A stretch of DNA of 21,505 nucleotides from positions 1-21,505 of the IMG/VR virus record IMGVR_UViG_3300005607_000397, one strand, 5' to 3'. The notes beneath the pieces were generated by a model. It saw only the letters and a list, made by a program, of their open reading frames with translations. It did no database searches and was not told where the DNA came from. The DNA comes from a virus. This document shows positions 5,183-20,243 of the stretch, piece by piece; within the stretch, counting starts at the first letter, position 1; each line of letters begins with the position of its first letter. A program made the position numbers and the translations under genes.

Positions 5183-7356
5183 TGACCACGATCCCCCTCG
5201 AGCAGGAAAGAAAGGAAGGTGTTCCGCCGATCCACCTGTCGCTTGTTAGCGCAATTGTCGATGCCCCAGCGATCGCCCAGGATGATCACCGACTCCTTCG
5301 CACGGGTCACTGCGGTGTACAGCAGGTTGCGATGGTGCATGAAGGAGTGCGATTTGTGGGCGATCACGACTGCACACGGGAACTCCGATCCCTGCACTTT
5401 GTGGATCGACGTCGCGTAAGCGAGGTGGATGTTTCCGATGGCATCGGACCCGGCATCGATTTCCACCGGTCTGCCATCGAAGTCGATCGACAGCGAACCA
5501 TCGGATCGGACCTCAAGCACGACACCCATCGCGCCATTCATTACGCCCAACTCGTAGTCGTTCTTCGTCTGAATGACCTTGTCGCCGGCGTAGAGCGGCG
5601 GCCGACGGTTGGGATCGACCGGCGGAACGTTGAGCCCATACAGCCGCTTCTGCAGAAGCTGTTGCAGTGCTACGTTCAACTCCGCCGTGCCGAGCGGACC
5701 CTTGTGCGTTGGCGTTAGCACTTGGACATCGCGGATCAGGTCGTACCCGAGCCGATTGCTCAACACCTCGTCGAACAACAAGAGCAGCATTCTGTGGACG
5801 TCTTCCCGATCGGAGAATTTGTCGATGACGTACCAAGGGCGGCGCGCGCCCACCTGCTCATCCGATGTCGGCCGAACCTCGCCATCGAGGATCGCGGTGG
5901 AGTTCTCTTTCAATACCCCCGCCTGGCGGATGATTCGCGTCAGGATGGTTGTTGGAATTGCCGCCGAACGGACCAGATCCCTGAGCAAATTCCCCGGCCC
6001 TACCGGTGGCAGTTGGTTATGGTCACCGACCAACACGACCGCAGTCCGCGAGCGGTCGATCGCTTGGAACAGCCGCCAGGCGAGCGGAACATCCACCATG
6101 GAAACTTCGTCGATGACGAGGATGTCGGCCTCGACGGGGTTGATCGCATCGCGCGCGTAGGTGTGGCCGTTGAAGCCCAAGAGCCGGTGGATCGTGCTCG
6201 CCTCGATGCCCACTACCTCTTCCAGCCGCTTGGCCGCCTTGCCCGTCGGAGCCGCAAGGACAACCTTCCGTTCCAGCCGCTCGGCGATAGAGGCGATCGT
6301 CGAAACCGCATAGGTCTTTCCGCTGCCCGCGCCGCCGGTCATCAACGACAGGGAATACGTCAGTGCGTTCCTCACAGCCTGACGCTGCTCGGCATTGAGT
6401 TCGCCGCCCTCGGCATCGAGCAATCGATCGACATCGGCAACCGAATGTGGGCTGCTTGCCGTACCCGCCTTCAAGATAGTGGCGAGTTCCGCTTCCATGC
6501 GATGGATCTCCGGATCGGCAACTACGAGCCGCTCAAAGGCATGAGAGATCAGGCGCCCTTCCGTGATCAGATCTTCCAGGTGGGTCTCGATCACCTCACG
6601 GCTGTCGAGGGTGTCCATCACCAGCAGAGTGTTGGCACGGTCAAGAAGATCCTCGTATTCGACCCAGCAGTCGCCGTTGTCCAAAGCCTCAAGGACGCAG
6701 TAGTGCAGCCCCGCGCGGATGCGGGATGGGAGGTCCTTCGGCGTTCCGAGCTTCCGCGCGATCTTGTCGACCCGCTTGAACCCGAACCCAACAATCTCGC
6801 GTACCAGGACATACGGATCGTGCTCCAAAATCGGGACCACTTGGCTGCCGAACTTCCCGACCAGCGTCGTGACCTGGTGGTGAGTCAGTCCGAAGGCCGC
6901 GAGGTACGCCATCGCCGTGTTGAACTCGCTGTTGGCGATCCAGATCCGCTGCAGTTCCATCGCGATCTCGACCGGAACCTTCGCGGTGGCGGCAATCTCC
7001 TCTGGTTGGTTGCGGATTGCTTGGTCGAACTCACGGCCGAACCGGTCCGCAATCAGCCGCGCTTTCGCGGGTCCGATGCCCTTCACGTCGGGGTGATTGG
7101 CGAGGAAGTTGGCCAGCCCCTCGGGGTCCATCTCCAGGTCGTGCCCCATACAGTCCGCCTCGAACTGGCGGCCATACTTCGGGTGGTTCACCCACCGCCC
7201 TTCCAACCTGACGGCATCGCTCGTTCGCACGAATACCCGCCCCGCGAATTTGACATCCTCGCCTTCAGAAGTGCGAAGCCGCCCGGCGCTGAACGTCGGC
7301 CCCGAGTAGAACACCGTCTCCACGGTGCCGCGGATGCATGTGCGATCTGCTGTCAT
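5179..7356 (-). CDS. RecD2-type SF1B DNA helicase
   Basis: The start is ATG 7356, with an ideal AGGAGGTG site about 7 bases upstream; the longer frame from 7407 is rejected. The protein is 725 aa, the size expected for RecD2. The N-terminal 300 residues carry the RecD2 OB/HhH-type region (VKGIGPAKARLIADRFG at about 91-107, FGFKRVDKIARKLG at about 191-204). Helicase motifs follow: Walker A GGAGSGKT (341-348), APTGKAAKRL, Walker B VIDE (414-417), GDHNQLPPVG (444-453), LTRIIRQA, and the C-terminal HKVQGSEFP and YTAVTRAKE motifs. It would unwind DNA 5'-3' in phage replication or recombination. It overlaps genes on both sides by ATGA. Confidence 0.93.
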   Translation of the reverse strand: MTADRTCIRGTVETVFYSGPTFSAGRLRTSEGEDVKFAGRVFVRTSDAVRLEGRWVNHPKYGRQFEADCMGHDLEMDPEGLANFLANHPDVKGIGPAKARLIADRFGREFDQAIRNQPEEIAATAKVPVEIAMELQRIWIANSEFNTAMAYLAAFGLTHHQVTTLVGKFGSQVVPILEHDPYVLVREIVGFGFKRVDKIARKLGTPKDLPSRIRAGLHYCVLEALDNGDCWVEYEDLLDRANTLLVMDTLDSREVIETHLEDLITEGRLISHAFERLVVADPEIHRMEAELATILKAGTASSPHSVADVDRLLDAEGGELNAEQRQAVRNALTYSLSLMTGGAGSGKTYAVSTIASIAERLERKVVLAAPTGKAAKRLEEVVGIEASTIHRLLGFNGHTYARDAINPVEADILVIDEVSMVDVPLAWRLFQAIDRSRTAVVLVGDHNQLPPVGPGNLLRDLVRSAAIPTTILTRIIRQAGVLKENSTAILDGEVRPTSDEQVGARRPWYVIDKFSDREDVHRMLLLLFDEVLSNRLGYDLIRDVQVLTPTHKGPLGTAELNVALQQLLQKRLYGLNVPPVDPNRRPPLYAGDKVIQTKNDYELGVMNGAMGVVLEVRSDGSLSIDFDGRPVEIDAGSDAIGNIHLAYATSIHKVQGSEFPCAVVIAHKSHSFMHHRNLLYTAVTRAKESVIILGDRWGIDNCANKRQVDRRNTFLSFLLEGDRGQ

Positions 7357-7808
7357 CGATCCCACCTCCTTCGCGCCGCAAGCAGGTATGCCTGCGTGAA
7401 ATGGCAAGCAGCCTGGCGATTGCCGCAGAAGAACACCGGGATGCGGTAGTCGAGGATGATCGACAGGGCGCTGCCAAGGACAGCATTCGGGTGGGCGTCG
7501 CCTCGATAGCGCTGCTGGAGCACGTCGGCGATACCAGCCTCCACCACCACACAGGCCGCCCGGTAACCGGCCAGCACTCGCAACTCCCGGCGGAATCGCG
7601 CCCGGGCATGGACTACCGTCCCGACAAAATCGTCGAGAGACTTGCGCTCAACAGCGACCTCGCCTTCGAGGCCCGCAATGGAGTAGTCCCCGGCCGGCAG
7701 CGCTCGCCGCACGGCAGCCGCCAGCCGGGTATCGAACGAATATGGCTCCTGTTCGCGGGTGTCGATGACGATGGTGGCCGCTGATTCCTCAGAACGGGAC
7801 AAGGGCAT
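7353..7808 (-). CDS. ERCC4-type nuclease
   Basis: This 151-aa protein is a single ERCC4/XPF-like nuclease domain. The catalytic signature is visible as D16-T-R-E19 near the N-terminus, then GDYS (40-43), then the E54-R55-K56 triplet followed by SLDDFVGTV. Such stand-alone domains in phages and mobile elements cut branched or flap DNA. Here it sits between the DUF669 gene and RecD2, which fits processing of replication or recombination intermediates. The ATG at 7808 lies 20 nt inside the DUF669 gene, and its stop overlaps the helicase start as ATGA. There is no helicase or HhH domain attached, unlike cellular XPF/Mus81. Confidence 0.88.
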   Translation of the reverse strand: MPLSRSEESAATIVIDTREQEPYSFDTRLAAAVRRALPAGDYSIAGLEGEVAVERKSLDDFVGTVVHARARFRRELRVLAGYRAACVVVEAGIADVLQQRYRGDAHPNAVLGSALSIILDYRIPVFFCGNRQAACHFTQAYLLAARRRWDR

Positions 7809-8247
7809 CCCCGGCGTCCTGGCGAAATTTGCCCGGCTCGCGGCTGGTGTCGATGCGGCGATTGAAAAAGATGTTCTCGTTGTCGCCCTTGGTGCGCTTG
7901 GTGACCTCGAGCTTGACGTCCAGCAGCTTGCTCAGGTGTTTGGGCAACTCGGAGATCCGTTCCAGGTCAAGCCCGCACAAGTGCAGGTCGGTCTTGACGT
8001 ACTTCAGCGTGTTGTGGGTGATCACGCTGTTCCGCCACATCAGCCGGTTGACGAACTTCGGCGCGATGACGCGGAGCGTCCACTTGATCATCGGGTTTCC
8101 GGTCGACTGCGCCTCGGTCAGTTCCACCTTCTCCACGTTGACTTGGTACTTGCCATCAGGCACGCTCTCGAAGTCGCTTCGCTCTTCGGGCTGCTCGCTG
8201 CGGAATCCATCATCGAACTGCGAGAGATCAATCGAATGTTTACTCAT
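7789..8247 (-). CDS. DUF669-like phage protein, probable ssDNA-binding role
   Basis: The start is ATG 8247 with AGGAGAA about 6 bases upstream, giving 152 aa. The pattern of an acidic N-terminus followed by VPDGKYQVNVEKVEL, a central TLRVIAP strand and a C-terminal VTKR/NIFFNRRID segment matches DUF669-type phage proteins. These lie beside RecA-like Sak4 ATPases and are thought to act as single-strand binding or recombination partners. The neighbours here (Sak4-like upstream, ERCC4 nuclease downstream) agree. I see no catalytic motif. The function is from family context, not from a visible active site. Confidence 0.75.
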   Translation of the reverse strand: MSKHSIDLSQFDDGFRSEQPEERSDFESVPDGKYQVNVEKVELTEAQSTGNPMIKWTLRVIAPKFVNRLMWRNSVITHNTLKYVKTDLHLCGLDLERISELPKHLSKLLDVKLEVTKRTKGDNENIFFNRRIDTSREPGKFRQDAGDALVPF

Positions 8248-8269
8248 GGTTTCTTCTCCTGTCGGGAAC

Positions 8270-9022
8270 TCACTTGGCCGCTGCTGGCGCCTTCGCTGCG
8301 GCAACCGGTTTCAGCGGGGCCACGGGAGTATTGAAGGCGTCCATGAACTTGCGGAAATCGAGGTCGATGGTCTCGGGGAGCCGCCCCGTGCGATCGCCGG
8401 CTTCGTAGTAGAGGCTGGGCTTTGTGCGGATCACGCGGCGTACACTCTGGGCCCCGTCTTCCCCGGTGGCCACCTCGAGGTCACAGAAGAGGACCATGTC
8501 CACCATGCCCAGCACGATCTTGCGGGCCTTGTCGGGCAACGTCGGCACGATGCGCGTGTACTTGCCGGTCCGCGTTTCCACCTCGATCTCCTTGGCGTGC
8601 GAGATGAGGAACAGCCCATAGGGCAGGAACGCGAGCTTCGTCAGTACCCGTTGGAACTCGTTGTTGACGATCGCGTACCCCTTCCCGTACGCGAGGTCGG
8701 ATTCGTGCTCAACCTTGAACTTCCGCAGGATGTAGTCGGTGCAGAACTTGTAGGCGTTGTCGATCGTGTCGATGACGACGGTCTTGAAGGGATGCTTTCC
8801 CTCACCGATCTCCGCGCACGCGTTGAGCAGATCCTCCCAGGTCTGAATCGGCGCCTGGTAGACATCGAGCGCATTGAGACCAGGCTCGGTGGCGAGGAAC
8901 AGTGCGTTGTCGGCATTCGAGCACAGCGTCGATTTGCCGATTTTCGTTTGCCCATAGACCAGCACGGTCAGATCCGCGAGGTTGGGCTTCGGTTGGGTCT
9001 TGGCAGTTGGCAGTAGTGGCAT
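8270..9022 (-). CDS. Sak4/RecA-like phage recombination ATPase
   Basis: The start ATG 9022 has AGGAGAA about 4 bases upstream; the longer frame from 9073 is rejected. The 250-aa protein has Walker A GQTKIGKST (24-32), a Walker B-like TVVIDTID (81-88) and an LISHAKE segment around H142 typical of the phage AAA/RecA-core family. The C-terminal 20 residues are an Ala/Pro/Lys tail. Members promote single-strand annealing or strand exchange during phage recombination. It is flanked by the PD-(D/E)XK nuclease and the DUF669 protein, the usual exonuclease, annealer and SSB grouping. Confidence 0.85.
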   Translation of the reverse strand: MPLLPTAKTQPKPNLADLTVLVYGQTKIGKSTLCSNADNALFLATEPGLNALDVYQAPIQTWEDLLNACAEIGEGKHPFKTVVIDTIDNAYKFCTDYILRKFKVEHESDLAYGKGYAIVNNEFQRVLTKLAFLPYGLFLISHAKEIEVETRTGKYTRIVPTLPDKARKIVLGMVDMVLFCDLEVATGEDGAQSVRRVIRTKPSLYYEAGDRTGRLPETIDLDFRKFMDAFNTPVAPLKPVAAAKAPAAAK

Positions 9023-9035
9023 GATTTCTCCTCGA

Positions 9036-10058
9036 TCAGAAAGCTGGGGTGACTGCGTCGGCGGTGAGAACACGGAGTTCTTCGTGCGGCTCGACGCGTT
9101 GATAGAAGTTCTCCATCACGTTGGGATTTCCGTTCGAACGGCACAACGCGAAGTAGGGACAAGGCCGCTGGTAGTTAAAGCAGAAGCTGGTGTTCTGGTA
9201 GAAGGCGCCCCGCCGCCGGGCGTCGAGAAATGACTGCGTCAGCTCCCACAACTCGGCCTGCAAGACGGCGAAGCGGTCGCGCGAGATATAGAGCCGCTCG
9301 CGGTGGAACATGCCAGGTTCGGCGTACTTCTCCGCCAGCCGCTGCTGAAACTCTTCGTCGGTTTCGGGGAGCTTGCGCTTGGCGGTCGTTTTGCCGGTCT
9401 TCGACTTGGCCAGCAACTCAGACCGCCGCGCTTCGAACTCCTCCTCGGTTTCGCCCTGGCTCTGCTGCAGGCGCGTCTTGACCAGGATGTTGTAGAGGAT
9501 CCCCGTTATCTGGAAGCCGAAACGCTGCTCCAAATACCAGGCGTAGAGGGTGATCTGGAAGTCCGTCCACAACCGCTCCAGGTAGTCGGATCCAAGCTGC
9601 GCCGCTGTCTTGTGTTCGAGCAGGTAGTAGTCGCCGTCGATTCGAACGATGCCATCCACCTTGCCAGCCAACACGAAGCTGCGCGAAGTAGCGCCCGTTG
9701 CGGGATTCACGATCGGCATGTTCGTGAAGGTCTCTTCGAGCGCGATCACCTCGAATTCCTCCACTGCGTACAGCTCCGCGTAGCCCTTCATCATGGCGGT
9801 GGCGTAATGCCAATCCCGGCGCTGGTCCTCGTCCTGCGCTCGGCCCGCGCACCGGCGGTCGATGTGGTCGAGCACGCTCGCGAGGTCACGATCCCGATGC
9901 CACATCTCCAGGCATTCGTGGATCAGAGATCCGAAGTGCAGGTTGCGGTCACGTTCGATTGGCGCGAGGTTCTGCAGATACCGCCAGTCGACCGCCTTCC
10001 GGCAATTCCGGAAAAGGCTCCACATCGAATAGGTCGTTACCATCGGGGCGGCGCTCAT
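9036..10058 (-). CDS. RecB/Cas4-like PD-(D/E)XK nuclease with four-Cys Fe-S signature
   Basis: A 340-aa protein with the RecB-type nuclease motifs in order: GSLIH (H47), AGKVDG (D135), LLEHK (E148, K150) and QITLY (Q168, Y172). One cysteine, C19, lies near the N-terminus and three near the C-terminus: C293, C300 and C306. This is the one-plus-three arrangement that binds a 4Fe-4S cluster in AddB, Cas4 and Dna2 nucleases. A charged insertion occupies about 200-250. It likely resects DNA ends to make single strands for the Sak4-like ATPase encoded next. GGAGGTG lies about 4 bases before ATG 10058, and the start overlaps the previous stop as ATGA. It is not near a CRISPR array, so a Cas4 call is not made. 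Confidence 0.87.
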   Translation of the reverse strand: MSAAPMVTTYSMWSLFRNCRKAVDWRYLQNLAPIERDRNLHFGSLIHECLEMWHRDRDLASVLDHIDRRCAGRAQDEDQRRDWHYATAMMKGYAELYAVEEFEVIALEETFTNMPIVNPATGATSRSFVLAGKVDGIVRIDGDYYLLEHKTAAQLGSDYLERLWTDFQITLYAWYLEQRFGFQITGILYNILVKTRLQQSQGETEEEFEARRSELLAKSKTGKTTAKRKLPETDEEFQQRLAEKYAEPGMFHRERLYISRDRFAVLQAELWELTQSFLDARRRGAFYQNTSFCFNYQRPCPYFALCRSNGNPNVMENFYQRVEPHEELRVLTADAVTPAF

Positions 10059-10585
10059 CGGGCACCTCCGCTTGGTGCAAGGCCCGCTTCCCGAAAGGCC
10101 TGCCTGATCTCGCCGATCATCTGGTAGATTCGCGGCCGCGACTTGCCCGTCTCCCGCCTCACCTCTGCCACCGACATCCGGCTGAGCAGGACAGCAACCT
10201 CGCGCAGGTGCTCCGGAAGGGACGCGACGACCTTGCGCACATCCATCTGCAGTTCGATTGAGCGGGCCAATGCCGGTGCGGGCGGCTCAGCGCAGGAACT
10301 CCGCATCAGCACCCGGTCGTCGACGCCGCTGATGAACGTCGGACGCCGGCCGTTCTGGATGGCGAGACGCGCGGCACGATTTCGGACGACGCCGAAGATG
10401 AAGCCCCGGTGTTCCCCGCGCCCCGACTGGTAGTGGCGGCTGCGCTTCAGGTAGTCGAGCAGCAAGTCTTGGCGCAGATCGTCCCAGTCGGCGCGAGGGA
10501 AACCGAAGGATGCGACGAGTTGGCTGGCGCGAATCCCGGCTTGCTGAAGAGCGAAGGGATCGATGGTCGCAGGTACGGGCGTCAT
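10055..10585 (-). CDS. Sigma-70-family-like RNA polymerase sigma factor
   Basis: The 176-aa protein has the two-domain layout of an ECF-size sigma factor. Residues about 20-80 resemble region 2 (WDDLRQDLLLDYLKR, then RGFIFGVVRNRAAR). Residues about 115-165 resemble region 4, a helix-turn-helix with LPEHLREVAVLLSRMSVAEV then TGKSRPRIYQMI. The long linker between them is Pro/Arg-rich. It is inside the replication operon, with ATGA overlaps on both sides, so it may redirect transcription to late or other element promoters. A DNA-binding protein without sigma activity is the main alternative. Confidence 0.6.
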   Translation of the reverse strand: MTPVPATIDPFALQQAGIRASQLVASFGFPRADWDDLRQDLLLDYLKRSRHYQSGRGEHRGFIFGVVRNRAARLAIQNGRRPTFISGVDDRVLMRSSCAEPPAPALARSIELQMDVRKVVASLPEHLREVAVLLSRMSVAEVRRETGKSRPRIYQMIGEIRQAFREAGLAPSGGAR

Positions 10586-10923
10586 GACAACACCCCTGCC
10601 GGCACAGCCTCAACGATCATCCGGAACGGCAGCCCATGCCGGACCTCGATCCGCTCGATAGTGCCGTCTTCCAGGCGTGCGACCTGCTCGAAGAACCGCT
10701 CAATCGGACGCCGCAACGCGAAGTCACTGAGCCGCGATTCCGGGCGCGGGCCATCTTCTGCATCGAGCTTCACTTCGACGAAGACCCGCGGCGCCGGGCT
10801 GAACTGCGGCTCGCCGTTGCGGATCTCCAATTCCTCGATCCGGCCGAAGTTGATCGTTTGAAACAGCCGCACGAGCCGCGCGCGTTCGGGGGAAAGGTCA
10901 TGAAAAGCGGTAGGGCGGATCAT
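10582..10923 (-). CDS. Hypothetical 113-aa protein
   Basis: ATG 10923 overlaps the upstream stop, and its own TGA overlaps the sigma-factor start (both ATGA), so it belongs to the operon. The family is not recognised. The protein reads as two similar halves: a VRLFQTINFGRIEELEIRNGEPQF type segment at about 18-41 and a VARLEDGTIERIEVRHGLPF type segment at about 81-100. Both contain an I-E-x-(L/I)-x-(I/V)-R-(N/H)-G-x-P pattern, suggesting an internal repeat of a small beta-rich unit. No enzyme motif is visible. Confidence 0.6.
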   Translation of the reverse strand: MIRPTAFHDLSPERARLVRLFQTINFGRIEELEIRNGEPQFSPAPRVFVEVKLDAEDGPRPESRLSDFALRRPIERFFEQVARLEDGTIERIEVRHGLPFRMIVEAVPAGVLS

Positions 10924-11258
10924 GCGGCGCTCTCCCCCATCCGGCTGCGGTTGCGCGCCAGAAATTCATCAACGGCGGGGTGAGTCCGCGGCGGCCGAAC
11001 GGCGGTCGGCTCAAACTCCTCGCGCCCGGTCACGCCACTCAGGTTGCGGAGCAGTCGGACGCGGATCCGGTCGAGCCGCTTCATGACCGTCCAGAGGATG
11101 TCGTCGTCGAGGTTGTGGATAGCGGCGGCGGAGCCGACTAACAAGGCAATGTCGTCAAAGGAGTCGCGGATCAGGGCCTCGTGCGCCGCAGCGATAGCCG
11201 GCGGAGCCTTGGTGGCATCCCCATTCCGCTTCGGAGGGTTCGTAGCAGGTGAAGTCAT
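10920..11258 (-). CDS. Hypothetical 112-aa protein, first gene of the replication operon
   Basis: ATG 11258 follows a GGGAA ribosome-binding site by about 7 bases. The N-terminal 20 residues are basic and Pro-rich. Residues about 22-72 are predicted helical (EALIRDSFDDIALLVGSA, then DILWTVMKRLDRIRVRLLRNL). The C-terminal 30 residues are basic and polar. No family is recognised. As promoter-proximal gene of a nine-gene minus-strand run it could be an early regulatory or accessory protein. Its upstream region contains a TGTGAA/TTCACA dyad 25-38 bases before the start codon. Confidence 0.6.
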   Translation of the reverse strand: MTSPATNPPKRNGDATKAPPAIAAAHEALIRDSFDDIALLVGSAAAIHNLDDDILWTVMKRLDRIRVRLLRNLSGVTGREEFEPTAVRPPRTHPAVDEFLARNRSRMGESAA

Positions 11259-11282
11259 TTTCGGTTTCCCTGCTACCCTTCC

Positions 11283-11296
11283 TGTGAACTTTCACA
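11283..11296. promoter_or_regulatory. Operator-like dyad TGTGAA-N2-TTCACA
   Basis: A perfect 6-bp inverted repeat with a 2-bp centre (TGTGAACTTTCACA) lies 25-38 bases upstream of the start of the minus-strand replication operon, where a repressor would block its promoter. A related TGTGA/TCACA dyad lies at 11400-11414. No clear -35/-10 pair was found for the minus strand. Confidence 0.4.
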
Positions 11297-11399
11297 TTCC
11301 GGAGCCGATGGCGAGCGATGAGACAGCTAAGTGCTTGAAAGGACGGGTGAAGATTTTCGCTCTCGGGTCAACATTTTCTCTCCGGACCCCTCGCCGGAA

Positions 11400-11414
11400 T
11401 TGTGAAGCTCACAA
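11400..11414. promoter_or_regulatory. Operator-like dyad TTGTGA-N3-TCACAA
   Basis: Positions 11400-11414 form a perfect 6-bp inverted repeat with a 3-bp centre. It shares the TGTGA/TCACA arms of the dyad at 11283-11296 (117 bp away) and falls in the same divergent intergenic region. Two matching arms suggest one regulator. The arms resemble those of LacI/CRP-type sites but the spacing differs. Confidence 0.4.
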
Positions 11415-11511: not shown

Positions 11512-11541
11512 TTGTTCGCCTTATGTTCGCCATGCTAAAAT
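11512..11541 (+). promoter_or_regulatory. Extended -10 promoter for the plus-strand two-gene operon
   Basis: TTGTTC (11512-11517) and TAAAAT (11536-11541) are separated by 18 bp, and TGC precedes the -10, making an extended -10. Transcription would begin near 11548, about 105 nt before the first gene. An 18-codon ORF starts at 11550 (ATG TTA ATC) and stops at 11606; it would be a leader peptide on an essentially leaderless message, if it is used at all. The rest of 11259-11653 holds no gene I can support. Confidence 0.45.
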
Positions 11542-11653: not shown

Positions 11654-12823
11654 ATGCCCATGCACTTCACCCCAAAAGCGTTTCTGCGGCATGTGCCAAA
11701 TGGACTGTTGCAGGACTACTTCGCGAAGCGAAGCCAACTCCAAGAAATCCTGTGGGATCAGCTCTCCGAGACGGGCATCGAGGCTGTCCACGACGCCATC
11801 GTTCAACTGCCGGAGGCGCAGGTACAAGAGATCTGCGGCCATTTCCGCGCGGTGTGGGAGATGGCGGCACGCGAGTACACTCCCTGGCTGATCCAGGTCG
11901 CGCGCGAGCACGGCGTCGACCTCGCGGCATCGATGCAGAAGCAATCGAATGCCTATGAGCGCGCGTTTCGGGTTTTCCTCGAACACCCCGCGATCTTCGA
12001 GGAGGCGAAGGCACTGGCGCACTGGGAGAGCCTGCCTCGCCGATCGACCGAGAAGCGAAACGGGATGCCGAAGATGGCACCGGCGATCAACGAACTCACC
12101 CTCGAGCAGTTCGGCGCGACCGTATCGCGGTACTACCAGGAGGCCCAAGGACGCGGCGAGCACTGCAAGGTCGAGCACTTTGTCCGTTCCGGTCACATCG
12201 ACTTCTTCTTCGCCTATCCCGCCGACTACTCAGACACGATGATCTGCTACGAGGATGACGGCAACTTCGCCCGCAAGGAATGGAAGCCGGCATTCGAGGT
12301 CGTGGTCATGTTCGACCGCAGCACCGGCACCGCGGAACTCTACGCCGAGGGCAGTGCCGACGTCCGCGAGAACCTGGCCGGCATCTTCGCGCGCACCATC
12401 CTCGGCGTCGACGAGGTCCCGAAGCGTGTTCCGAAGCCGCCATACGACCTTCAGCCGCTGCTGAACCCGCACTTTCGTTTCCCGACACGTCCGGAAGACA
12501 AGATCCTGCACACTCGGCTGAAGTCGATCCGGCTTCAGAAGTGGAACGACGACGGACGCATTATCTTCGACGCCGGCGGCCGAAACTCCCGAAAGAGTGC
12601 CCTCGATCTCGTGGCTGAGGCTCTCAATGAGGTTCGGTTGCCGCGTGACAAGTTCCGCGTCACACAGGCGGCCTTCCAGGCGGTGTTCGAGAACGGGCGG
12701 AAGCGGCCGAAGACCGTGAGTTTCACGATCACGCATCCTGCCGGCTGCTCTCTCCGCGACAGCGACGAAGATCTGATCCTCCGCCGCTGCCTCCGCGACT
12801 GGGGGATCGCAAACGATGAGTGA
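11654..12823 (+). CDS. Unknown 389-aa protein, first of a two-gene operon
   Basis: ATG 11654 follows AGGA at a short spacing; a second ATG at 11660 is possible. There is no characterised family I can name and no signal peptide or membrane segment. Residues about 10-125 are helical, with a GLLQDYFAKR start and a hydrophobic stretch at 60-85. After a basic linker (128-142), residues 150-260 form an alpha/beta block with VEHFVRSGHIDFFFAYPADY (173-192), then EWKPAFEVVVMFD (209-221) and AELYAEG. Residues 285-388 form a C-terminal strand-rich domain (SFTITHPAGCSL at 356-367). It overlaps the next gene by 8 bases, so the two products probably act together. I vaguely recall similar uncharacterised pairs in other bacteria, but cannot cite one. 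Confidence 0.75.
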   Translation: MPMHFTPKAFLRHVPNGLLQDYFAKRSQLQEILWDQLSETGIEAVHDAIVQLPEAQVQEICGHFRAVWEMAAREYTPWLIQVAREHGVDLAASMQKQSNAYERAFRVFLEHPAIFEEAKALAHWESLPRRSTEKRNGMPKMAPAINELTLEQFGATVSRYYQEAQGRGEHCKVEHFVRSGHIDFFFAYPADYSDTMICYEDDGNFARKEWKPAFEVVVMFDRSTGTAELYAEGSADVRENLAGIFARTILGVDEVPKRVPKPPYDLQPLLNPHFRFPTRPEDKILHTRLKSIRLQKWNDDGRIIFDAGGRNSRKSALDLVAEALNEVRLPRDKFRVTQAAFQAVFENGRKRPKTVSFTITHPAGCSLRDSDEDLILRRCLRDWGIANDE

Positions 12824-14252
12824 TCTGCTCCGCGAACTCTGGTCCCGCGCCGAGTGCGAGGAGTCTTCATTTTCGGCGGAGGAAATCGAGTGGTCGCCGC
12901 CAGGGCAGTTCGAACTGCTCTGCAACCTTGGCTTGCTGAAGGAAACGGACCGGGCGACGTGGGCCCGCTGCGAGGCCTGCGGCGACGGTCACGTCGAAAA
13001 CGTTGCCTGGGTCCAGAACGCCACCACCGGCAGGTCGGCGCCGTTCGTCCCGTGCCCTGAAAATGGAGGTGCCTCCGTTTCCATCGAGCGCCTCCGCCGC
13101 TGGGCCATTGACCTCGATGCGATCGCCCAGGCAACACGCCGGGCGCTCGAGTTGATCGGTAATGACTCCGTCCTGTTGCCAGGTCGGGTCTGGTTTCTCG
13201 GCCGCCGCCATGTCGCCGGGCGGTTCCGCGACTTCTTCTTCGTCGTCGGCGCCGCCCGCGAGGACGCCCACACCCTTTGGGACCGATGCCCCCAGATCGA
13301 GGATGCTCCTTCGCCGGTCATTCTGGTTCCCAGCCAAACGCCATCCGAACGAAAGGCGTCGGCCTTCCGCCTGGCCGACCTGGCCTCCATCACCGACGAC
13401 CGAATAGTCGTGGACCTCGATTACGTTGGGGACGCGCTGCCGAGTGAGCGTGGTGTCACGCCGGCGAAGACAGTGGCCAGTTTCCCGGTACCGGCAGACG
13501 CAACATGGGCCGATCTCCGTCTGGTGGTCCGGGAGCACACCATCGTGGCGCGCCTCCGAAACCAGGAGCAGGAGTTCGGCTTTGAGGATCTCGGCATCTC
13601 CGGAACAACCGACCGGCTGTGGCAGTTGCTTTGCACCCTCGCACGCGTCGGTGGCCAGACTCCGGCTCGAAGTCGAACCGTATCCGAGCAGGGCGCGGCC
13701 ACATTTCGGAAGCAGGTCAGCGACCTCCGCCAACGTCTTTCGACGGTGTTCCCCATCAACGGCGAGCCGATTCGGGCGGTGCACGGAACCGGAGGCTACC
13801 GGTGCCTATTCCAGATCAGCCTGGACCGCGTTGACGGTTTTCCGGTGCAACCGGCACGATGGGACGAATGCCGATTCACCGAACTGCCTGATGGCCGTAT
13901 CGCGATCTCTGTTCGGACAAAGGAGGTCTTCGCCGCCAGGACCATTTCGGACGAGACCACAAGTCGCACCGATCTGGAGGCGGCGGAGCGCTCTGGTGTT
14001 CGAACGGAGGAATATGACCTCCGCGCGCTCGGCCTCGCCGACCAAGTCGGCCGCCCAACAGCCGAGGGTCGAGTACTCCTGGAATTCCTCCGCAACGGAG
14101 GGAAGCTGACGCGGAGGGGTGACGATAAAGACATCCTCCGTCTCGCACAGCGACTCCGGGACTGGATGGGGCTCGAAGTCGAGCCATTTCGTTTTACGCA
14201 GAGCCGGGCGCTCTGGAGCACGGTCTTTGAGTCTTTTAGGTCTGACCAGTAG
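12816..14252 (+). CDS. Unknown 478-aa protein with Cys pair and C-terminal winged-helix segment
   Basis: ATG 12816 lies inside the end of the 389-aa gene, with GGGGGA about 9 bases upstream. The N-terminus (1-50) is helical. C52-x2-C55, H59 and C80 (followed by PENG) look like a zinc ribbon or finger. Residues 85-260 are mixed alpha/beta with an RVWFLGRRHVAGRFRDFFFV core (124-143). Residues about 265-335 fit an OmpR-type winged helix: LWQLLCTLARVGG, FRKQVSDLRQRL (297-308), then the IRAVHGTGGYRCLF wing (319-332). The last 100 residues end with another helical segment. It may be the DNA-binding or regulatory partner of the 389-aa protein. Function unknown. Confidence 0.72.
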   Translation: MSDLLRELWSRAECEESSFSAEEIEWSPPGQFELLCNLGLLKETDRATWARCEACGDGHVENVAWVQNATTGRSAPFVPCPENGGASVSIERLRRWAIDLDAIAQATRRALELIGNDSVLLPGRVWFLGRRHVAGRFRDFFFVVGAAREDAHTLWDRCPQIEDAPSPVILVPSQTPSERKASAFRLADLASITDDRIVVDLDYVGDALPSERGVTPAKTVASFPVPADATWADLRLVVREHTIVARLRNQEQEFGFEDLGISGTTDRLWQLLCTLARVGGQTPARSRTVSEQGAATFRKQVSDLRQRLSTVFPINGEPIRAVHGTGGYRCLFQISLDRVDGFPVQPARWDECRFTELPDGRIAISVRTKEVFAARTISDETTSRTDLEAAERSGVRTEEYDLRALGLADQVGRPTAEGRVLLEFLRNGGKLTRRGDDKDILRLAQRLRDWMGLEVEPFRFTQSRALWSTVFESFRSDQ

Positions 14253-14333
14253 GCGACATTGAACTAGAGCACAGGATTTCCGCCTCTACTGAAGAATCCT
14301 AATCGGCCGCGGTCTGCAGTAACTGTCTTTGGT

Positions 14334-14364
14334 TTGGACCAGTCATGCGTTGCGACGCTAATAT
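14334..14364 (+). promoter_or_regulatory. Weak candidate promoter upstream of the YiiX-like gene
   Basis: TTGGAC (14334-14339) and TAATAT (14359-14364) are 19 bp apart, longer than ideal. They lie in a 132-bp gap between the two plus-strand transcription units, 21-51 bases before the GTG start. The gap suggests the hydrolase gene has its own promoter rather than reading through from the two-gene operon. Confidence 0.3.
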
Positions 14365-14384
14365 CTTGAGAGCGAGGTGCAATT

Positions 14385-15089
14385 GTGGCGAATACCGACT
14401 ATGAGAAACCAATCCTGCTGAACGCTGTCGATGTCCAACCGGGCGACGTGTTGCTTTGTAACTGCGGACCCTATAGCGATTTTTCGCAGCGAAGGATTGA
14501 AGATGTCACAGGCAGCCCCTATGTCCATGCGGCCATCTCCGTCGGCGCCGGAATGGTTGCGGAGTCTACCACGGGCGGCTTGCAACAGGTGTCGCTTGCG
14601 GAGTTATTGGAGCGCTACGCTCATGTTGCGGTTTTTCGAAGTTCCTATGTTTGGAGTGAGGACCGAGTTCGCAAGCTCAAGGCGTTCGTTGAGCGTGAAA
14701 TCCAGCGCCAGGCGAAGTATAGTTTCATCGGCGCCTTCAAGCTGCTGTGGAAGCCGAAGAAACACGCCGCTACGATCCACCAGCAGCTGCAGGATTTCTT
14801 CAATCGGGCGCCAGAGTCTAAGAAGAAGGTCGTTTTCTTCGGCCACAAACGGTACTTCTGCTCCGAGTTTGTCGCACAGTGTTTCATCGAGGCAGGTTTC
14901 ACCGAGGGGGCCGGTGCTGTTTTCTTTCGCCCAGATGTCCAGACCCCGGCCGCGCTGGGGAGGGACTGGTTGTACGGCGTTCTCGTTGGGTTCATCACCA
15001 ACAAGAACGACTATGTCGTTCCTGCCGAAGACGAGTTCTATAACGATGCGACGTACAGAGAAATATTTCTCGACGAAGCGAATGGGTAG
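14385..15089 (+). CDS. YiiX-like permuted papain-fold (NlpC/P60 superfamily) cysteine hydrolase
   Basis: The GTG at 14385 follows GAGG by about 8 bases. The 234-aa protein shows the permuted NlpC/P60 layout: QPGDVLL strand (18-24), then GSPYVHAAISVG with catalytic His48, and the nucleophile in YFCSEFVAQCF, Cys159. The KYSFIG segment (111-116) fits the substrate-pocket strand. Family members cleave amide or thioester bonds in peptides, peptidoglycan or lipids. There is no signal peptide or transmembrane helix, so a cytosolic substrate is expected. It faces the CHAT gene tail-to-tail with 30 bp between stops, with no terminator visible there. Its role could be a toxin-like effector, but this is inference. 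Confidence 0.78.
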   Translation: MANTDYEKPILLNAVDVQPGDVLLCNCGPYSDFSQRRIEDVTGSPYVHAAISVGAGMVAESTTGGLQQVSLAELLERYAHVAVFRSSYVWSEDRVRKLKAFVEREIQRQAKYSFIGAFKLLWKPKKHAATIHQQLQDFFNRAPESKKKVVFFGHKRYFCSEFVAQCFIEAGFTEGAGAVFFRPDVQTPAALGRDWLYGVLVGFITNKNDYVVPAEDEFYNDATYREIFLDEANG

Positions 15090-15119
15090 CAGCTGAAATC
15101 GTTCTGCGCTTGGGCTCCG

Positions 15120-17969
15120 CTACTCCTCGGCTCGGAGTCTGTCTAGCAGCCTCGTCGCATTCTCTACGCCGTCTCCGTCATTGTTTTCGGCGAACTTGTT
15201 GCGCGCTGTCATAAGCCAAGTCGCGGCGCTCGTCTTCTTTCCTTCGATGAGATCGATTTCTGCCCAGAGTAACGAAAGGCTTGCAACAACATTGATCAGC
15301 CCGCAGTTGTGCGCCAGTGGCAACGCTTCCCGAATCCGTTCCCTTGCTAGGGTGTATTCCTCTTCGTCGATATAGATGCGCGCTATGGCGTGCAGTGAGA
15401 TGGCCACTCCCGCTTCATCGCCCCGCAAGAGATCGTGCTGGTAGCTCTCTAGAAAGTGCTCTAGTGCGTCGGGTGCGTTGTACCGTTCGAGGAGGAGTGC
15501 TTTCAGGTGGAGAAATCGGGAGCGAAGCGCAGGGGGCATCTGCACGTTCTCCACCGCGTTGAGCTCCTCGACCGCTTCCCTGTCGCGGTTGGCTCGTCGG
15601 AGCAAGTCTGCCTTCGTATGCCGTAGCTCTGCGACAAGCACCTCCGGGCAATGGGTGTCTACGGCGAGTTGCACTGCTCGTGACGCGGCAGCAATAGCCT
15701 CATCCGACCGGTCTTGCTCACGGCGTATGTGGGCGAGTTGTCCCATGAGCCGCGCCTCGGCTTCTCCTTGGTCCTCCGTGAGTTGCTGGAGCAGATCGTG
15801 CGCCTCCTGCCAGCGCCGTTCGGCATCGTCGAGCCTATCGAGCTCTATCAGGCAGTCAATTTGCTGCGTGATCGTCGCCTGCAAGTTCTTGATGTAGTCG
15901 TCGTTATCCCGGAAGGCCTGCAACTCAGCCTCGATCCGTTCGTTCTCCACAAGGCCGGTACGGTAGTCACCCCGAAGCATTGCGATTGTGACGAGGTGCC
16001 CGCGAAGGACCACGCGTTCAAGGCCCGTCGCGTGGGGGACTAGCTGCTCAATAAAGCCTTTCATCTCGTGCAGCCTACCGTTCATACCAAACCACCGGCA
16101 AAGCGTGATGCACATCAATGGGGCCACTTCCCAATCTTCAATGCGGATCGCCCAATCGAGCAGCCGGACATCCCGGGGGTCGATCCTGCCGCTCGCGGCG
16201 AGCATACCCATCGCGCCTACGAGCCGCCGGAATCCTTCGCGATGCTCTGCTCGCCAGTTGGGGAACCATCGCTCGCCAAGCAGCATGAATTCCGGCGCTA
16301 GCAGCAGCGCTTCGTTTTCCTCGTGAATGACGGTTGCAGCGAGCGCGTTCTCTATGCCTGCCAGGATGACCGCCGAGGGGACTCCGAAGTTCTCCATCAT
16401 GTTCGCAAACTCGGCCCGTTCAGCGAAGGTGGTCCTCGCGATTCCCTGGTTGGATACGAGCCAGCTCGCAAATACGATGCCGTCGCGATTCAGTCTAGCG
16501 GCCCGCTCAGCCATGCGGTTTTCGCGCTCAAAGCGTGCGACCGCCTCGTCTTCTGTCCGACCAGCGATCAGGTCTTGCACAAACCCAGATACACCGATGA
16601 GGGGATGGTTCTTTACCCGATCCGCGAGGCCGCGATCCTCGGCTGCGAGCAAGCGAACAGCGAGTTTCTTGTCCATCCCGTCGCAGTACACGATGTTCTC
16701 TCCGGGCACGGGAATGAACGAATGTGGGTGCGCCAGCCGCACGAGTTGGCCGTCAGGGACGTCGAGAATTGGCGTACCGTCGTTCTCAACACGCCACCGA
16801 GCGGACATGCTCTGCGACCGCCGAACAAGTGCTGCCCAATGCTGAATTGCCGCATCACCGCCAGCACCCACCGGCGCGAGCAGGGTTGTCGGCCCGGTCT
16901 GGTGCGCAAAACTGTTCAACGTACTCAGTTGGAGCTCCATGCCGGGACATCGTGGTGCAGGTGAGCCGGCCAAGGGAGGAATGGCATTCGTGATGCGCAA
17001 CGAACGAGCACGTTCTCGATGGAGATGGACGGCGTTGAAGAACGCATACTCATCCGCCGTATCGAGTGCTCGCACCGCCATCATCGCCTCCTCAACGGTT
17101 CGACCCCGAACCAGTTCACGGAACAGACAGGCGATGCTGTTCGTGGCGGTTGTTGAATCCAGGGGGAACGTGAACGCGATGAGATCCGCAGGGAGTATCG
17201 CCCCCTCATTGACCACAGGTCCACCGAGACGAGCGCTCTCGCACGTCGAAAGGATGAGAAGCTTGCACCCATAGGAAGCGCACAGCCCGACAAGCTGTGC
17301 TGTCCGGGCGCGCCGACCGTCGCCAAGGAAGAGATGGTGTTCACCTTGAAGGTCGTCGTAACGGCCATGCCCGGAAATGACAACGATTTGTGGGCGAAAC
17401 CCGTCCAACACCGCCTCGACGTGGCCAGGGGACGGATCGATAAGAAACTCCATCGGGATGCCTGTGGGGACCGTTTCGAGGAGCCTGCAGCGTTCCTCAT
17501 CGAAGCGGAGTCCATTGTCCGAGCCCAAGCTCATGTGAACGATATCGACAAGAGGATTCCGTCGTTTACTTCTTGCAGCGGTCGCGGGTACGTAGCGCAC
17601 AAGATGACTGCCTGGCGCCCCGATCAGGAACGTATCATCGACACGAAGGAGTTCCCATGGAAACGGCATCAACGGATGCACTGCTTGCGCGAACTGAACG
17701 CGCACCTGCCGCGCCTCATTGGCCAATCCCAGCTCATTCCATTGCTCGGGTGATGCGATCAGAGCGGCGAGCCGCTCTCCGACGTCATTGAGCAGAACAT
17801 CGCCCGGGTCGCGAGCCCCGACTGACTTCCAGCGCAACAGCCGCAGATCCTCATGGAGGCTTGTCGCAAGATGCGGATCGACGGCTGTCGTGAACTCGCG
17901 CGTACCGGCACTGACGCGGAACCGGTACTGGCCGCCGGCGTCAACGTCGATTTGAATGCGAAGATCCAT
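15120..17969 (-). CDS. CHAT-domain caspase-like protease with C-terminal TPR repeats
   Basis: The 949-aa protein starts with a strand-rich 140-residue segment. A canonical CHAT protease follows (about 140-330): VVISGHGRYDD with His201 and LLILSTCESARLGG with Cys243, then the typical GRTVEEAMMAVRAL helix. A middle region of about 300 residues (340-640) is not recognised and has no P-loop. Helical TPR-like repeats run from about 650 to 945. The layout resembles TPR-CHAT proteases, with the order CHAT then TPR. It is likely cytosolic. There is no Shine-Dalgarno site before ATG 17969 and a -10-like TAAGAT lies 10 bases upstream, so the mRNA may be nearly leaderless. No CRISPR genes are present, so it is not a Craspase component. 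Confidence 0.88.
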   Translation of the reverse strand: MDLRIQIDVDAGGQYRFRVSAGTREFTTAVDPHLATSLHEDLRLLRWKSVGARDPGDVLLNDVGERLAALIASPEQWNELGLANEARQVRVQFAQAVHPLMPFPWELLRVDDTFLIGAPGSHLVRYVPATAARSKRRNPLVDIVHMSLGSDNGLRFDEERCRLLETVPTGIPMEFLIDPSPGHVEAVLDGFRPQIVVISGHGRYDDLQGEHHLFLGDGRRARTAQLVGLCASYGCKLLILSTCESARLGGPVVNEGAILPADLIAFTFPLDSTTATNSIACLFRELVRGRTVEEAMMAVRALDTADEYAFFNAVHLHRERARSLRITNAIPPLAGSPAPRCPGMELQLSTLNSFAHQTGPTTLLAPVGAGGDAAIQHWAALVRRSQSMSARWRVENDGTPILDVPDGQLVRLAHPHSFIPVPGENIVYCDGMDKKLAVRLLAAEDRGLADRVKNHPLIGVSGFVQDLIAGRTEDEAVARFERENRMAERAARLNRDGIVFASWLVSNQGIARTTFAERAEFANMMENFGVPSAVILAGIENALAATVIHEENEALLLAPEFMLLGERWFPNWRAEHREGFRRLVGAMGMLAASGRIDPRDVRLLDWAIRIEDWEVAPLMCITLCRWFGMNGRLHEMKGFIEQLVPHATGLERVVLRGHLVTIAMLRGDYRTGLVENERIEAELQAFRDNDDYIKNLQATITQQIDCLIELDRLDDAERRWQEAHDLLQQLTEDQGEAEARLMGQLAHIRREQDRSDEAIAAASRAVQLAVDTHCPEVLVAELRHTKADLLRRANRDREAVEELNAVENVQMPPALRSRFLHLKALLLERYNAPDALEHFLESYQHDLLRGDEAGVAISLHAIARIYIDEEEYTLARERIREALPLAHNCGLINVVASLSLLWAEIDLIEGKKTSAATWLMTARNKFAENNDGDGVENATRLLDRLRAEE

Positions 17970-17979
17970 GAAGGGTTCT

Positions 17980-17985
17980 ATCTTA
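17980..17985 (-). promoter_or_regulatory. Candidate -10 box for the CHAT gene
   Basis: On the minus strand TAAGAT lies 10 bases upstream of the CHAT start codon, with no good -35 match 17 bp further upstream (GACGGA). If used, transcription would begin about 3 bases before the ATG, in keeping with the lack of a ribosome-binding site. The rest of 17970-18230 contains inverted repeats but no gene I can support. Confidence 0.25.
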
Positions 17986-18230
17986 ACCTCGGGACCTTCT
18001 CTTCCGTCGGCGGACGATCTTCGCGTTGGTTCTACCCAGGCTAGGAATGAACACCGTCCGGACGAAGATCAGCGGACGCTAGCCTTTCACGGAGCGCGAA
18101 GGAGCCCGCTATCGTAATCACCGCATGCTGCTTTGATTTCACTCTCCTCGAATCGTCGGCAATCCGGAGAGTAAGAGGTCTGGCCTAGTCGAGGCGACTA
18201 CTGTCAGCGCTGGAAGTCTTCGGTGCCTTA

Positions 18231-18250
18231 CAAACGCTTTCCACGAAAGC
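18231..18250 (-). terminator. Weak hairpin terminator after the recombinase cassette
   Basis: On the minus strand GCTTTC-GTG-GAAAGC forms a 6-bp perfect stem with a 3-base loop, followed by GTTTGT. It starts 3 bases beyond the stop of the last cassette gene (18253). The stem is short and the T tract is broken, so termination would be partial. Confidence 0.35.
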
Positions 18251-18252
18251 CG

Positions 18253-18677
18253 TTATAGCGAATCTCTAACCTTGGGGGCCAACTCCTCCCACCGTTCACG
18301 CTGCACCTCCCACGCCGGCAGTCGCGCCACCAATCGCAGCGCGGTCTCTGACACCGGAAATCGGCCACCCCGCGTCTTAGGCAGGCCGAGCACCTCCTGC
18401 TGGATGTCCGGCGCCAGCCAGGCTAGCATCATGATCTGGCTCATGCGCTCGCGGCTGATGCAGCCCAGGCGGGCTAGGTCAGTGTGGTTCCGGACCTCGC
18501 CGCGATCCAGCATGTCCTGAAAGTGGATGGCCAAGGCGACCACCTGCACGATGCGCGGGTAACGGTCGAAGCGGCGGCGTGCTGCCTCCTGCTTGGGCTT
18601 TTCTCCGGACTGCCGGTCAATGGCTCGGACGCCTGGCTTCAGGTTGAACTCGATCTCGAAGGTCTTTGATTCCTGCC

Positions 18678-18681
<4 letters not shown>
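18253..18681 (-). CDS. ParB/KorB-like HTH protein of the recombinase cassette
   Basis: The GTG start at 18681 overlaps the recombinase stop as GTGA. The 142-aa protein begins with a polar strand segment (1-25) and is basic around 26-40. Residues about 45-65 hold a helix (VVALAIHFQDMLDRGEV), then a helix-turn-helix with DLARLGCISRERMSQIMMLAWLAP (about 68-91), the pattern of KorB/ParB central domains. There is no nuclease or CTPase part, so it is not a full ParB. I recall such short HTH proteins encoded directly after large serine recombinases in soil bacteria, and expect an accessory role in recombination or its regulation. Confidence 0.7.

Positions 18682-20229
<1,548 letters not shown>

Positions 20230-20243
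<14 letters not shown>

Follow-up and report, generated by a model that had tools for sequence, protein, structure and literature searches.

A two-gene module beside the replication genes of temperate phages, mainly in Acidobacteriota, with paired candidate operators at a conserved spacing

In the gal operon of Escherichia coli, GalR and HU form a loop between the operators OI and OE, which lie 113 bp (~11 helical turns) apart; GalR looping is best at spacings of 103 and 113 bp and poor at 108 and 118 bp (PMC4693257). The gene pair described here, A-B, resembles gal in that a palindromic candidate operator lies on either side of a promoter region that lacks good -35 elements, but its proteins are unrelated to GalR and HU and its operator spacings (106–107 or 116.5–119 bp) are off the best gal phase. 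Phage repressors of the LexA, CI, and XRE-ImmA/IrrE kinds have the same element position and the same likely target (the early or replication operon) as A-B, which is set apart from them by the zinc-like domain and exchangeable helix-turn-helix (HTH) of B and by the obligate partnership of B with A. The winged helix of OmpR/PhoB is a further point of comparison, as there is a Trans_reg_C match (E=1e-5) in the B protein of one relative and the first winged helix of B in the window is alike by eye, whereas B lacks a receiver domain and the B protein of the window itself has no Pfam match. The protein families are new and the kind of job is known; A-B is undescribed as far as the tools show, and no relevant literature came up in searches on elements of this type or on a phage repressor that depends in this way on a partner.

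The stretch of DNA analyzed (the window) is a 21,505-base IMG/VR viral record that includes genes for a serine recombinase and a DUF2924 protein, together with a replication operon that runs leftward. A near-identical A-B pair (A 97%) occurs in Bryobacterales F-183, whose chromosome sequence is nearly complete, within a prophage-like region (L024/L025) that also carries a gpA-type terminase large subunit gene, and we therefore take the window as most likely a fragment of a temperate phage. Weak matches to phrog_2 (terminase) in these contigs fall on a RecD2-like helicase gene and were discarded as terminase evidence. The genes and protein segments of the window considered here are as follows:

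2438–10923, minus strand: rest of the replication operon, downstream of the 'LGG' gene
10920–11258, minus strand: first gene of the divergent replication operon, encoding the 'LGG' protein, with the operator pair directly upstream
11654–12823, plus strand: gene A (389 aa), from its ORF, a phrog_37634 profile match, and an AlphaFold2 model
12816–14252, plus strand: gene B (478 aa), from its ORF, with a zinc-like N-terminal domain and two winged-helix-like segments
12969–13055, plus strand: metal-site-like motif of B, C52-x2-C55-x3-H59 ... C80, from conservation in homologues
13611–13817, plus strand: winged-helix segment 1 of B (WH1, aa 266–334), with the best co-variation with the operators
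14055–14213, plus strand: winged-helix-like segment 2 of B (WH2, aa 414–466), from alignment and model
18253–18681, minus strand: recombinase companion, a small HTH-like protein (integration gene)
18678–20243, minus strand: serine recombinase (integration gene)

The long portion of the replication operon (2438–10923) codes for an unnamed 113-aa protein and includes sigma-like, PD-(D/E)XK nuclease, AAA_24, DUF669, ERCC4, RecD2-like helicase, and VapE-like primase/helicase genes. Small conserved 'LGG' and 'NFG' genes (10582–11258) open the operon, and one or both are found in most related elements.

The original prediction, made from this DNA alone, saw a coupled gene pair, and the reading frames of A and B do overlap by 8 nt. 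The pair recurs in dozens of loci, at 30–97% identity, among the viral contigs and genomes scanned, so that the linkage exceeds chance. B is the next gene after every intact A whose contig continues, with an overlap or a short gap; at five loci (L011, L022, L064, L073, and L075) A is at the contig end and B is hence not seen, and truncated remnants of A are present at three others (L071, L074, and L077). A and B are fused into a single gene at L066, L067, and L076, which is strong evidence for their joint work. In the gene-neighborhood survey as a whole the pairing is essentially complete, and the homologues are neither always single nor clearly members of known families. The hosts of A-B are prophages and viral contigs, mainly of Acidobacteriota. 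A is rare, with the A profile finding it in 20 of 299 genomes of one class and the PHROG profile in 3 of 396 genomes of the phylum, and tblastn searches of phage and plasmid records with A and B gave no match. The MAG containing L011 is labelled Acidimicrobiia; its phylum draw consists of the same genomes as Acidobacteriota, and the label may be wrong.

Neither A nor B has a match at a useful level in Pfam, NCBIfam, or PADLOC, and profile searches against PDB sequences gave no credible match to either. A does match phrog_37634 along its full length (E=6.3e-29, residues 5–387 on 4–406 of 416), a family to which PHROG gives no function. The AlphaFold2 model of A (pLDDT 85) predicts a helical N-terminal part (~aa 1–127) followed by two alpha/beta units (~aa 170–250 and 284–382). 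Foldseek relates this model to CENP-N (E 2e-4, probability 0.98), RnlA (probability up to 0.99), and phage RdgC (probability 0.94–0.99), with a faint TBP-like resemblance, but the TM-scores against the CENP-N, RnlA NRD, and RdgC folds are low (~0.16–0.39), with ~10% identity and large rmsd, and superposition of the CENP-N or TBP-like fold on a domain of A has a best E of 2e-4 yet a TM of 0.2–0.39. Given good Foldseek probabilities alongside low TM-scores, we treat a DNA-binding scaffold role, which A may perhaps have, as a lead. An identity of A as an RnlA/RnlB toxin was rejected, there being no Pfam match to a HEPN toxin domain in A and a match to the RnlA fold that is both partial and weak.

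In B, an N-terminal domain of ~200 aa is conserved and the C-terminus varies by lineage in its length and type of HTH. The cysteines C52, C55, and C80, which the original prediction had picked out, are invariant among 28 diverse B homologues, and H59 is at least 90% conserved; the Cys/His domain appears to be zinc-like, with a putative metal site. The predicted winged-helix-like C-terminus was also borne out, in that alignment and modeling indicate two such segments in the window B and sibling B proteins have HTH family matches in Pfam (HTH_Crp_2, HTH_3, and Cro, in addition to Trans_reg_C). Some B proteins also have a CII-like PHROG match. Judging from these matches, the C-terminus of B is exchangeable between HTH types. 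Foldseek with the whole of B gave no match. No S24 or M78 protease was matched in A or B, and the S24 peptidase and HTH combination of a LexA or CI(S24) repressor was matched in neither, so this identity was set aside.

Within the elements A-B sits between integrase/repressor genes and the replication operon, and the genes around the pair vary. Upstream of A there is, depending on the element, a serine recombinase with its HTH-like companion (these genes directly adjoin A-B in L010, L011, and L027), LexA, or an XRE protein with an ImmA/IrrE-type peptidase, and downstream of the pair there are AlpA-like genes or the replication operon. LexA (S24) is a separate gene directly upstream of A in L087 and L089, and the XRE and peptidase functions are directly upstream of A in L093 and form one fused divergent gene in L016; these neighbors suggest that A-B belongs with the lysogeny-control genes there. 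In the window clade the A-B cassette is inverted relative to L010 and L027 and is divergent from the replication operon, and its other flank varies: the window has between B and the recombinase companion (14252–18253) a papain-like gene of the YaeF/YiiX type and one for a TPR protein, the latter named as CHAT in the original prediction, and relatives have different genes here. At L019 (6–1184) a distant A-B pair, with an AlpA-like gene after it, is next to a gene for Cas9 (Cas9_a E=1.6e-9). The constant location by integrase/repressor and replication genes points to a phage control position and not to cargo.

The following features lie in the noncoding DNA ahead of A and of the first replication gene:

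11242–11276, minus strand: possible hairpin with arms GTAGCAGG / CCTGCTAC, at the translation start (ribosome-binding site and start codon) of the first replication gene
11283–11296, no strand: proximal candidate operator, palindrome TGTGAACTTTCACA, nearer the replication operon
11297–11399, minus strand: inter-operator region, probable replication-operon promoter, from homology to the inter-operator region of other elements
11400–11414, no strand: distal candidate operator, palindrome TTGTGAAGCTCACAA, the two centers being 117.5 bp apart
11513 and 11524: direct repeats TGTTCGCC, 11 bp apart, preceding the A-B extended -10
11533–11541, plus strand: A-B promoter extended -10 TGCTAAAAT (TG-C-TAAAAT), kept in relatives

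The extended -10 that the original prediction placed upstream of A is thus present, and it is retained as TGCTAGAAT in the 80%-identical L009 though much of the intergenic DNA has diverged; a strict sigma-70 scan found no consensus promoter. The TTCGCC core of the repeats in front of it (11513–11531) is also kept in L009, and these could be an autoregulatory site. A hairpin similar to that over the ribosome-binding site is predicted in most related elements and, as its covariation is weak, we simply note it here.

The two palindromes are versions of each other set a fixed distance apart, a GalR-like feature, and flank the probable promoter, with the proximal one between this promoter and the ribosome-binding site of the first gene of the operon. 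The inter-operator DNA has a consensus like GAAAAATCTTC...TTTCAA...TAGC and is lower in G+C than the element. The distal palindrome is kept in L009 as ATTGTGAAATTCACAAT, and the palindrome sequences vary between elements. An unbiased scan of spacings from 60 to 160 bp, scored against shuffles, placed nine loci above their own shuffles, and the spacing was 107 bp in eight of these, L100 being the ninth. A 107-bp spacing is found in 13 elements (L027, L061, L065, L070, L103, L107, L108, L109, L110, L111, L112, L114, and L138), 106 bp in L120 alone, 116.5–118.5 bp in the window clade (the window, L002, L003, L008, and L009), and 119 bp in L010. Five of these (L120, L138, L103, L107, and L109) were outside the set that defined the pattern, yet have the palindrome pair. 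As a control, 560 stretches of 540 bp, drawn at random from the same loci, were scored, and scores of 24 or more were all at a spacing of 106 or 107 bp, i.e. the pair itself; in those elements that were searched with their own motif, matches with at most two mismatches fall nowhere but at this site. With a loop that is absent or very short, the palindromes fit dimer binding sites better than RNA hairpins. The two spacing classes (106–107 and 116.5–119 bp) are about one helical turn apart, which is compatible with a phase constraint.

No such pair was found in the A-B elements under LexA, XRE-ImmA, or AlpA-type control, indicating that B there reads other sites or has another role, and this absence is the main gap in reading A-B as a control module. 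T-type operators were predicted for elements with a Tyr-type B but different control genes (L087–L089, L092, and L100), and the pair was not found there. The first replication gene has a relative in L137, where the DNA examined includes neither A-B nor the palindrome pair. Single palindromes and G+C-rich repeats at other loci were at background level.

Which protein reads the palindromes was addressed by correlating protein similarity with operator similarity, and B-WH1 is the best correlate in every comparison, with rho of 0.77 for 11 elements, 0.60 for nine less redundant ones, and 0.34–0.62 in the smallest sets; with near-copies removed the operator correlations are marginal (p 0.008–0.11). 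For WH2, the largest non-redundant set gives no correlation with the operator sequences. The candidate recognition helix in WH1 is R298-K299-Q300-V301-S302-D303-L304-R305, within a model helix of aa 291–311, and one of its residues corresponds to the sixth base of the half-site, with Gln (Q300 in the window) paired with A, Arg with C (G on the other strand), and Tyr with T, with no exceptions and amounting to about two independent changes on the tree. Gln-A and Arg-G are usual protein-DNA contacts. The cleanest single contrast is that of L010 with L027 (A 68% identical), where both helix and operator differ. From these sequence comparisons, B is most likely a DNA-binding protein that reads both palindromes through WH1.

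On balance we think it probable, if by no means secure, that A-B is a module by which temperate phages control replication and lysogeny, acting as an on/off switch. B dimers would bind the two operators flanking the probable replication-operon promoter, with the half-sites read by the first winged helix, and with both sites occupied, some ten or eleven helical turns apart, a nucleoprotein loop would form and hold the promoter off during prophage dormancy. A is proposed to bind the conserved N-terminal domain of B and to be required in the complex as a scaffold with a bridging or DNA-bending function, and it may also sense the inducing signal. Repression is favored by the proximal palindrome lying between the probable promoter and the ribosome-binding site and the distal one ~107–118 bp upstream, as compared with gal OI/OE. 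Looping by direct analogy to GalR is not assured, considering how poorly gal loops at 108 and 118 bp. The original view that neither gene serves replication is probably wrong in effect, since the replication operon probably has its promoter between the operators that B is most likely to read. More tentatively, A and B may together clamp two operators lying at a constant distance of 107 or ~117 bp, closing the replication promoter, and so form an undescribed class of switch in which A would be a conserved TBP/CENP-N-like protein and B an adaptor that has a zinc domain and an exchangeable end for reading DNA, specificity being changed between phages by swapping one winged helix and both operators; we regard this fuller version as possible but doubtful.

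It is rather unlikely that A-B is instead a pair of replication initiators, in which the palindromes and the A+T-richer stretch constitute an origin that B recognizes and A opens or loads with helicase. The location of A-B always beside replication genes in the elements read, the less G+C-rich inter-operator DNA, and the faint likeness of the A model to DNA-handling proteins such as RdgC would all agree with an origin, but there is no iteron array, the proximal palindrome is operator-like in lying just ahead of the ribosome-binding site, several B variants have ordinary transcription-regulator HTHs, and other classes of A-B element are without the palindrome pair. B, with or without A, could also be an activator that recruits RNA polymerase from the distal operator to a promoter without a good -35, as the lack of a consensus promoter in the sigma-70 scan and the CII-like match of some B proteins might indicate; a site between promoter and start codon would be unusual for an activator, and we consider this unlikely.

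Similarly, the palindromes could be read by the recombinase-linked HTH protein, which is encoded in the same elements, or by another factor, leaving A-B a separate role early in phage growth, and the phylogeny that operators and B share would accommodate such a reader. However, the recognition helix of this HTH protein ([ST]RER[MVI]SQ[IVM]M) is nearly invariant across elements with differing operators, and both it and the recombinase correlate with the operators less well than B-WH1 does, making this explanation quite improbable. The proposal of the original prediction was of a cargo system, perhaps for defence, or a regulatory pair, and only the regulatory pair has held up. Cargo is at odds with the constancy of A-B beside the integrase/repressor and replication genes while the surrounding genes vary. 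A role in defence, anti-defence, or as a toxin-antitoxin cargo could be argued from the Cas9 gene beside A-B in L019, the type I R-M-like genes near it in L068, and the match of A to RnlA, but this last is weak, PADLOC gave nothing for A or B up to E=1 and Pfam nothing, and both the genomic context and the exchangeable DNA-binding end of B are contrary to it, such that we view it as highly improbable.

A control module of the type we favor provides a function hypothesis for two families that had none, from phages of a little-studied phylum, the Acidobacteriota, with the target DNA named and the recognition position, Q300, predicted. The 20 elements with matching operator pairs make up a naturally occurring series in which the specificity of a modular phage regulator varies, and the immunity groups of these prophages could be predictable from sequence.
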